A stretch of DNA of 64,000 nucleotides from Nocardia ninae NBRC 108245 (GTDB lineage Bacteria; Actinomycetota; Actinomycetes; Mycobacteriales; Mycobacteriaceae): positions 37,587-101,586 of the forward strand of contig NZ_BJXA01000028.1 in the NCBI RefSeq assembly GCF_007990755.1, written 5' to 3'. Of this stretch, positions 5,907-8,402 are shown piece by piece. Numbering within the stretch: position 1 is the stretch's first letter; each line of letters begins with the position of its first letter. Made by a program: the position numbers and the translations under genes. A model generated the notes under the pieces. It searched no databases. It was given only the letters and a program-made list of their open reading frames with translations, and was not told where the DNA came from.

Positions 5907-8402
5907 TCACCGCTGCGAGACGACGTTCACCAGTTTCGGGGCCCGCACGATGACGTTCGCGACGGCTCGCCCGCCGAGCGCCTTGGCGATGCCGGGTGAC
6001 GACATCGCGAGCGTTCGCAGCGCGTCATCATCGATGTCGACGGCCACCTCGATCCGATCGCGGACTTTGCCGTCGACCTGCAGGATGCAGGTGGCGGTCG
6101 CGGCCGCGATCAGGTCGAGATCGGCCACCGGCCAGCCCGCGTCGGCCACCGAAGGACCATGGCCGAGCCGCTCCCATGCCTCCTCGGCGGTGAACGGCGC
6201 GAAACACGACACCATACGCACCAGCGCCTCGACCCCTTCGCGGACCGCGGGATCACCTGCGCCGGGGCCGGTATCGACCGCTTTGCGCAGTACGTTCGTC
6301 AACTGCATCAGCTGCGCGATCGCCACATTGAGGCGTTTGCCCGTCATCAGTTCGGTGGCCTTGGCGATCAGCTCGTGCACCGACCGCCGCACCGCACCCG
6401 CAACCGCTGAATCACCGGCAAGAGTTGCCGCGGACCCGATTTCGTCGGCGAGCCGCCAAATCCTGGCCAGCCATTTGACCGCCCCGTGCGGCGAGACATC
6501 GGCCCAGTCGATGTCGTCCTCCGGCGGTCCGGCGAAGATCATGGTGATCCGCACCGCGTCTGGGCCGTACTGGTCGATCTGATCCTGCAGGTTGACCAGG
6601 TTGCCGAGGCTCTTGCTCATCGCCTTGCCGTCCATGAGTACCTGGCCCTGGTTGGTCAGCCGGGTGAACGGTTCGGTGAACGGCAGCAGCCCCGCGTCGT
6701 GCAGCGACTTGGTCAGGAACCGGGCGTACAGCAGATGGCCGGTGGCGTGCTCCTTACCGCCGATGTACTCGTCGACCGGAAGCCACCGCGCGATTCCCGC
6801 CGGATCGAACGGACCCTCGGTGAAGTCCGGATTCGGGTAGCGCAGGAAGTACCACGACGAGTCGACGAAGGTGTCCATCGTGTCGGTGTCGCGCCGGGCT
6901 GGACCGGCACAGCGCGGACACGGCACCGCGACCCAGTCCTCGGCGCTGGCCAGCGGCGGCTTACCGCCGTCGGGACGCAGCTGGTACCCGGATTCGGGGA
7001 GCCGCACGGGCAATTCGTCATCGGGCACCGGCACCTCACCGCATGCGCCGCAGTGGATGATCGGGATCGGGGTGCCCCAATACCGTTGGCGCGAAAGCAG
7101 CCAGTCGCGCAACCGATAGGTGATCGCCGCCGCGCCGACGCCGCGCTCGGCGAGTTCGGCGATGATCGCGGTTTGCGCGTCGGCAACGGATTGTCCGGTG
7201 AATCGATCCGACTCGACGAGGACGCCCGCACCGTCGGTGGCCACACCGGTTACGCTCGGTTCGGGCTCCCCGGTATCGATCACGGTGCGCACGGGCAGGT
7301 CCATCGCCCGCGCGAAGTCGAGGTCGCGCTGATCGTGCGCGGGCACGGCCATCACAGCGCCGGTGCCATAGCCCGCCAGCACGTAATCGGCGGCGTACAC
7401 CGGAATCCGTTCGCCGTTCAGCGGATTGATCGCGTAGGAGCCGAGGAACACGCCCGTCTTGGGCCGGTCGGTGGCCAGCCGCTCGATCTCGGTCGCCCCC
7501 GCCGCCTTGGCCCGGTACGCCTCGAACTGATCCTTGTGGTCCGGTGCGCACAGCTCAGCGGCCAGCGGCGCGTCGAAGGCAACGACGAAAAACGTCGCAC
7601 CGAAAAGCGTGTCGGGGCGGGTGGTGAACACCCGCACCGGTTCGTCCCGGCCGTCGACTGCGAAATCGACGTACGCGCCCTCCGATCGCCCGATCCAATT
7701 GCGTTGCATCGTCAGGATTTCGGGCGGCCAACCGGCCAGCTGATCCATATCGTCGAGCAGTCGCTGGGCGTAATCGGTGATCTTGAAGAACCATTGGGTG
7801 AGCGCACGCTTGATCACCTGCGCGCCGCACCGCTCACAACGGCCCTGGACGACCTGTTCGTTGGCGAGCACCGTCTGGTCGTTGGGGCACCAGTTCACCG
7901 TGGCGTCCGCGCGGTAGGTCAGCCCGCACTCGTACAGCCGCAGGAACAACCACTGGTTCCAGCGGTAGTACTCCGGGTCACTGGTGTGCAGGCGGGTACG
8001 CCAGTCGAACGAAATACCAAGCCGGCGAAACGAATCCGCCTGGGTTTCGATGTTGCGATAGGTCCAGTCCCTCGGATCGAGGTCGCGTTTGAACGCGGCG
8101 TTCTCCGCGGGCAGACCGAACGAGTCCCAGCCGACCGGGAACAACGTTTCGGCGCCACGCATCCTGGCGAACCTGGCCATCGCGTCGCTGATCGAATAGA
8201 CCTCCGCGTGCCCCATGTGCAGATCGCCCGACGGATACGAGAACATACTCACCACGTACCGGCGATCGGCTTGCTCGTCGCCGCCCGTTAGCGATGAGAC
8301 ATCGAAAGTGCCGCGGCTATCCCAGATCTGGATCCACTTATCGACAACAGTGCGCGGATCGTAGGTCTCGTCGCTCGATACATCGTCAACGGAAGAGGTC
8401 AT
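5907..8402 (-). CDS. leuS: leucyl-tRNA synthetase (LeuRS), candidate self-resistance copy
   Basis: A full-length class Ia leucyl-tRNA synthetase of 831 residues from ATG 8402 (MTSSVDD); an in-frame start 28 codons upstream is less likely. HMGH (residues 62-65, the HIGH box) and MSKS (about 594-597, the KMSKS box) are present. Zinc-type cysteines occur in CERCGA, HCGACGE and CPRCAG. The CP1 editing domain keeps TTRPDTLFG (about residue 259) and [13 protein letters not shown] (about 345-357), so it looks competent for both aminoacylation and proofreading. It is nearer the E. coli LeuRS length (860) than the ~970 residues known for mycobacterial housekeeping LeuRS, which suggests a second copy. 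It sits inside the cluster, convergent to the tailoring methyltransferase. The obvious inference is target-based self-protection; being the only chromosomal leuS cannot be excluded from this window. Confidence 0.93.

Follow-up and report, generated by a model that had tools for sequence, protein, structure and literature searches.

Producers of mupirocin, borrelidin, obafluorin and indolmycin carry, together with the biosynthetic gene cluster, a resistant copy of the aminoacyl-tRNA synthetase that the antibiotic targets. The gene described here, found in a 64,000-nucleotide stretch of the Nocardia ninae NBRC 108245 genome (the window), encodes a second leucyl-tRNA synthetase (LeuRS2) within a polyketide synthase/nonribosomal peptide synthetase (PKS/NRPS) cluster and would follow the same logic with a different synthetase. 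Self-resistance synthetase copies are already known and include one LeuRS, AgnB2, the agrocin-84-resistant enzyme encoded on pAgK84 of Agrobacterium radiobacter K84. AgnB2 resembles LeuRS2 in being an extra LeuRS encoded with the genes of the toxin and in lacking the leucine-specific insertion domain, and like the cluster-borne LeuRSs described below it has an altered PYPSG sequence before the HIGH motif (PYTSG in AgnB2). The two proteins are 40% identical. However, the window enzyme has P, N, R and M in place of T42, A102, Q413 and Q573 of AgnB2 and so lacks the substitutions of the TM84-resistant AgnB2 type, and agrocin 84 is a nucleotide, unlike the predicted PKS/NRPS product of the LeuRS2 cluster. 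T42 is described as contributing to agrocin-84 resistance jointly with several other determinants, with little effect by itself in the transfer tests reported in that article (PMC5059758). A locus that recalls the agrocin-84 arrangement is present on the megaplasmid of Xenorhabdus bovienii CS03 (L149, 10096-22278), where the next gene after leuS is again synthetase-like, genes for an MFS transporter and reductases come after it, and genes for an LD-carboxypeptidase and a nucleoside phosphorylase lie upstream.

Extra synthetases linked to self-resistance are also described in actinomycete clusters, namely the IleRS-like SbzA of SB-203208 and the AlaRS AcmD of ascamycin (PMC12945691). They resemble LeuRS2 in this respect, although they concern other amino acids and SbzA also ligates an amino acid onto the product. 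In the tRNA-dependent assembly of these products, SbzA is reported to transfer isoleucine and AcmF alanine (PMC12945691).

No modular PKS/NRPS cluster that carries a LeuRS copy was found in print in the open-licence literature, and the open-licence literature on amidinotransferases with trans-AT PKSs yielded no product with LeuRS as its target. The original prediction had held that no PKS/NRPS product with this target was known. Apart from granaticin, no PKS/NRPS product aimed at LeuRS appeared in the open-licence literature on LeuRS self-resistance, Nocardia polyketides and natural LeuRS inhibitors. Granaticin is a natural polyketide of type II, whereas the LeuRS2 cluster is a modular PKS/NRPS with an amidinotransferase. 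The statement has to be narrowed because two published papers report that granaticin inhibits LeuRS (PMC9147431, PMC6450493), LeuRS being one of several enzymes on which it is said to act (PMC9147431). A polyketide acting on LeuRS is therefore not new in itself, and only the type of cluster and the resistance arrangement look new. A review that describes agrocin 84 as a natural LeuRS inhibitor also describes tavaborole, a LeuRS inhibitor that is an approved drug (PMC7916415), which makes LeuRS a proven drug target.

LeuRS2 and the surrounding cluster

The genome measures 9.7 Mb, and the window lies at one end of its contig C28, which stops at the right edge of the window. The coordinates first proposed for the gene, 5907-8402, are correct, and the strand, which had been left out, is the minus strand: its frame opens with ATG and runs without a stop for 831 aa, whereas the plus-strand frame across the same positions is interrupted by stops. 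The protein matches TIGR00396 (leuS_bact) with 917.3 bits against a cut-off of 548.4, over positions 2-841 of the 843-position profile, and aligns nearly end to end with Thermus thermophilus LeuRS (residues 12-590 and 593-828). The leucine-specific insertion that precedes MSKS in the T. thermophilus enzyme is absent from LeuRS2. The catalytic motifs HMGH and MSKS are present, as are the CP1 editing residues that correspond to T252 and D345 of the E. coli enzyme, and all aminoacylation and editing residues examined are intact, which bears out the initial description of a complete LeuRS with catalytic and editing motifs. Since its catalytic residues are kept, LeuRS2 could replace the housekeeping enzyme.

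LeuRS2 is not the sole leuS product of the genome, which has two leuS genes. The other, on contig C83, encodes a long housekeeping form of about 943-962 aa (open frame 962-989 aa) that is about 38% identical to LeuRS2 over its length; the expectation of a housekeeping enzyme of about 970 aa, longer than LeuRS2, was thus right in kind. The gene is not marked by any known RNA element, for example a T-box, since neither the window nor six related loci gave an Rfam match at gathering thresholds.

The PKS/NRPS cluster occupies approximately 50 kb, from about 3.8 to 54 kb of the window, and LeuRS2 lies between tailoring and precursor genes as originally proposed. The features are as follows.

3848..5104, plus strand: cytochrome P450, with a 51-76% identical counterpart in every other cluster (four of five) except that of G912, where the matches are only 35%
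5108..5902, plus strand: LCM-family methyltransferase, unmatched in the regions of G131 and G912
5907..8402, minus strand: LeuRS2, complete short-form leucyl-tRNA synthetase of 831 aa (TIGR00396 match, motifs), candidate self-resistance enzyme
8604..9716, minus strand: L-arginine:glycine-type amidinotransferase, upstream of LeuRS2 on the same strand
10051..10791, plus strand: 2OG-Fe dioxygenase of the PF10014 (BsmA) family, a distant match to L-isoleucine-4-hydroxylase
10801..11793, plus strand: aldo/keto reductase (AKR), used as a cluster marker
11866..14025, minus strand: AfsR/SARP-like regulator (HTH, BTAD, NB-ARC)
14807..34681, plus strand: large PKS of about 6,600 residues with two tandem N-terminal AT and four KS domains plus KR, DH, MT, ER and ACP
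34595..36538, minus strand: acyl/amino-acid adenylating enzyme
36198..37724, minus strand: beta-lactamase-fold protein, used as the marker in genus and class surveys
37705..43749, minus strand: NRPS with three C, one A and one PCP domain
43791..44069, minus strand: free carrier protein
44062..45429, minus strand: FAD-dependent DAO-family oxidase
47408..49150, plus strand: stand-alone A-PCP, inferred code DALWLGGTF, one residue off the commonest valine code
48928..50478, plus strand: cytochrome P450
50475..51236, plus strand: thioesterase
51239..52204, plus strand: fatty-acid-desaturase-family oxidase
51712..54081, plus strand: stand-alone A-PCP, inferred code DAWFLGHVV, one residue off the commonest leucine code; the true start is probably later than the ORF start

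The large PKS is probably of the trans-AT type because its KS linkers are RhiE-like. SxtG, HsvA and human AGAT are the closest solved relatives of the amidinotransferase, and SxtG and HsvA belong to pathways other than that of the LeuRS2 cluster. Both A-domain codes were derived by motif alignment at what we take to be the code positions; the leucine-like code is identical in the window and in G131, a second Nocardia genome with the cluster. In a published survey the commonest codes are given as DAWFLGNVVK for leucine and DALWIGGTFK for valine (PMC12283262). From the amidinotransferase relatives and the A-domain codes, a product that combines a guanidino group with units derived from leucine and valine is likely. 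Among the window ORFs scanned with Pfam, none was an exporter.

To the left of the cluster, an NRPS-like gene (1-3357, minus strand) runs off the end of the window and is preceded by a small ORF (3329-3532, minus strand) that appears MbtH-like by eye; the G131 region has a 53%-identical stretch corresponding to this area. Just to the right of the cluster is an IS110-family transposase (55672-56796). Outside the window on contig C28, approximately 15 to 12 kb beyond its left edge (L130, 4927-7568), HMGL-like/homocitrate-synthase-type and aconitase-family genes are flanked by two NRPS-like regions and may provide amino-acid chain extension for a neighboring NRPS.

Conservation of the cluster and the origins of its LeuRS

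Six genomes were found to contain the cluster. Two belong to Nocardia (the window genome and G131), and four come from another family of the order (G512, G970, G912 and G934). An extra LeuRS is located inside or at the edge of all six clusters, across species, and each genome, including that of the window, also has a separate long leuS, so that the extra LeuRS is in each case a second copy. The G131 cluster, reached through a LeuRS2 search of 150 genomes of the genus, is syntenic with that of the window at 66-88% identity, with LeuRS2 between the amidinotransferase and the P450; among the genes compared from 3.8 to 54 kb, which excluded the free carrier protein, the methyltransferase is the only one without a match. 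With the beta-lactamase-fold protein, a marker blind to LeuRS, a strong match was obtained in two of 148 genus genomes, namely the window genome and G131 (867 bits for G131, the next best scoring 81), and in a class sample of 394 genomes only the window genome itself matched. The 2OG dioxygenase query gave 23 matches in 397 genomes of the order; loci were opened in seven of the matching genomes, and the cluster is present in G512 (72% identity) and absent from the loci of six weaker matches (G287, G273, G356, G364, G325 and G323). The AKR query gave 77 matches in 297 genomes of the second family, and among the six best, which were opened, G512, G970, G912 and G934 have the cluster, while G1017 and G923 have the AKR alone on short contigs and one leuS each. 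A cluster with a strongly diverged AKR could escape this survey.

The position of the extra LeuRS varies among the clusters. It adjoins the second A-PCP in G512 and G970, it is one MFS gene away from the cluster in G934, whose cluster is divided between two contigs, and in G912 about 7 kb separate it from the cluster, its direct neighbors being ABC transporter genes and an MFS gene lying further in. Exporter genes are therefore found beside the extra LeuRS in two genomes, G912 and G934.

The association of LeuRS with the cluster can be counted in both families. In the second family, a short LeuRS is encoded by 17 of 297 genomes, comprising all four cluster genomes and 13 of the 293 others (Fisher p 7.5e-6, on the assumption that the AKR and short-LeuRS surveys share one genome draw). 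This is the cleanest count because its four clusters were found with 2OG or AKR queries that are blind to LeuRS. Eight of the LeuRS loci in the 13 cluster-free genomes were opened and contain no genes of this cluster, although one, L284, has other adenylation genes nearby; of the remaining five genomes, G1017 and G923 were seen on short contigs and G901, G965 and G997 were left unopened. The second leuS genes of G738 and G766 likewise have no genes of this cluster adjoining. At least 12 of 150 Nocardia genomes have an extra LeuRS or its remains, and over 148 genomes it is present in both genomes with the cluster and in 10 of 146 without (p 0.006), a weaker comparison because the window and G131 clusters were first encountered through LeuRS itself.

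The 10 cluster-free Nocardia genomes invite another explanation, that LeuRS2 is a general resistance or stress copy against the LeuRS inhibitors of other microbes and was inserted near the cluster by chance. Their copies or remains are found at two shared loci, one common to G073, G138 and G069 and the other to G030, G031, G143 and G029 (flanking genes compared by eye), and at a few single ones; this scattered distribution fits the spread of a resistance gene and also a general role. Those examined sit among other genes, so the same leuS locus is not conserved in the relatives examined that lack the cluster; by synteny, leuS goes with the cluster, and LeuRS2 is also present in Nocardia without it. 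Several of these copies, namely those of G069, G143, G029 and G102, are disrupted, being broken or divided between frames, as would be expected of a dispensable gene, whereas all six clusters have a LeuRS and at more than one position. Chance co-location of the four lineages described below is improbable, and we regard a general copy beside the cluster as very unlikely.

Several other relatives of LeuRS2 were seen in these genomes. Five Nocardia genomes have a relative without the CP1 editing domain (L124, 8583-10586; L125, 8944-10941; L126, about 9220-10850; remains in L128 and L129), CP1 being absent in those of G030, G031 and G132 and the copies of G143 and G029 being broken; those of G030, G031, G143 and G029 adjoin an ORF of 946-965 aa (a weak AAA match in G031), and that of G031 is also near an NRPS/AMP-ligase/luciferase-like group. 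LeuRS2 and the other cluster copies do not belong to this CP1-less class, since the CP1 stretches aligned are kept in them. The G102 gene (L127, 5638-7859), split over two frames, resembles the G512/G970 lineage by eye, and no genes of this cluster were seen adjoining it. The genomes of Frankia sp. R82 and Kineosporia rhizophila (L012, L014) each yielded a single leuS, whose product is a close relative of LeuRS2, so that this lineage may also be able to serve as sole enzyme.

Phylogenetic analysis places LeuRS2 in a short-form lineage distant from the housekeeping form. In a tree of 68 rows, the six cluster LeuRSs are found in four places: the window and G131 copies, intermixed with non-cluster Nocardia copies; that of G934; that of G912; and those of G512 and G970, whose identity to the window enzyme is only about 47%. 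Grouping of the six as one clade was rejected (AU p 1.7e-109), and with it a single vertically inherited gene. The amidinotransferase, by comparison, is 81-88% identical between the window and each of the five other clusters. Thus, one kind of cluster has had its LeuRS slot filled more than once. Repeated refilling fits a required LeuRS activity, and a chance neighbor would hardly behave in this way.

A LeuRS in or at every cluster could alternatively be biosynthetic, supplying Leu-tRNA for a tRNA-dependent transfer of leucine onto the product or performing that transfer itself. We retain this role as a rival because the nearest actinomycete parallels are the SB-203208 and ascamycin synthetases, one of which is also biosynthetic; in the published description of SbzA and AcmD/AcmF, the extra copies serve biosynthesis as well as protection (PMC12945691). 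However, the A-PCP with a leucine-like code already seems to activate leucine, no tRNA-dependent transferase family was matched by the window ORFs tested with Pfam, the aminoacylation and editing residues examined are intact, and four LeuRS lineages in the slot suit plain LeuRS function better than a specialized ligase. A biosynthetic role is unlikely on this evidence, and an enzyme that had one might also give self-resistance as a second role, to which extent the two explanations would overlap.

The synthetic site and the proposed self-resistance

The HIGH and KMSKS-type motifs, the leucine-pocket residues examined, and CP1 T252 and D345 (E. coli numbering) are kept in the cluster copies. The differences lie beside the synthetic site. 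Where PYPSG would precede HIGH, the window, G131 and G934 copies read SYPSG, that of G912 reads AYPSG, and those of G512 and G970 read PYTSG, whereas the long housekeeping copies, aligned for five of the six cluster genomes (G970 left out), have PYPSG. Among 149 distinct LeuRSs, every one of the six cluster copies departs from this sequence, against 15 of 136 others (p 5e-6 when copies are counted and about 1.5e-4 when the four lineages are, for a difference picked after aligning); it is also altered in five of six other Nocardia LeuRS2 copies and in AgnB2. At Ec536, adjoining the invariant H537, the window, G131 and G934 copies (three of six) have G instead of L/M; once the cluster copies, the Nocardia LeuRS2 group and the long forms are set aside, 48 of the 52 remaining rows have L. 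Both differences were selected after alignment and are seen too in LeuRSs without any cluster: PYTSG is common to G512, G970 and their non-cluster relatives. They would fit an inhibitor of the synthetic site, although they are partly lineage traits. SYPSG or AYPSG also replaces PYPSG in short-form LeuRSs of Streptosporangium, Nocardiopsis and Sphaerisporangium (L022, L023, L026, L035, L038 and L039).

The retention of the CP1 editing residues in all six cluster copies, together with the leucine-like A domain and a 2OG oxygenase that distantly matches an amino-acid hydroxylase, could also be understood if the cluster made a leucine analog that a normal LeuRS would mischarge, LeuRS2 being a stricter synthetase that discriminates against it. 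The housekeeping LeuRS is still encoded, however, and would still mischarge the analog, which makes this explanation highly improbable.

A complete second LeuRS is encoded in a conserved cluster, in six of six clusters, from four lineages, and with exporters beside two. We therefore favor self-resistance: LeuRS2 is very likely a target copy, and the cluster's guanidino, leucine-like polyketide-peptide would inhibit the long-form LeuRS, most likely at the synthetic site. The cluster would make a guanidino-bearing polyketide-peptide with a leucine-like building block, which would act on the cell's own long-form LeuRS at the site of Leu-AMP formation. LeuRS2 would keep charging tRNA-Leu yet bind the product poorly, so that translation would go on during production of the compound. 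If LeuRS2 is such a self-resistance enzyme, the product probably inhibits LeuRS. The activity of LeuRS2, its resistance, the identity of the product and LeuRS as its target are each what we infer from gene content and alignments. The original prediction of a candidate self-resistance gene, with a product that may inhibit LeuRS, gains support from the comparative evidence across clusters; the leuS count and the LeuRS phylogeny agree with it, and the active-site comparison, made on residues noticed after alignment, gave changes beside the synthetic site and intact CP1 residues.

In the open-licence literature searched, a natural LeuRS inhibitor is described together with a protective copy of its target in one case only, that of agrocin 84, a nucleotide. 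The spare LeuRS that accompanies all six clusters found points to an inhibitor whose target may be named in advance, and the six genomes are available as sources in which to seek it. The resistance slot, refilled by unrelated LeuRSs, would also serve as a natural experiment in the acquisition of resistance by synthetases. We lean, by a little, toward a broader proposal, that the cluster product would be the first modular polyketide-peptide antibiotic directed against LeuRS, with a guanidino group and a leucine mimic acting at the synthetic site, that resistant LeuRSs were acquired several times from different donors, and that the scattered LeuRS2 genes of Nocardia may constitute a reservoir of resistance against it.
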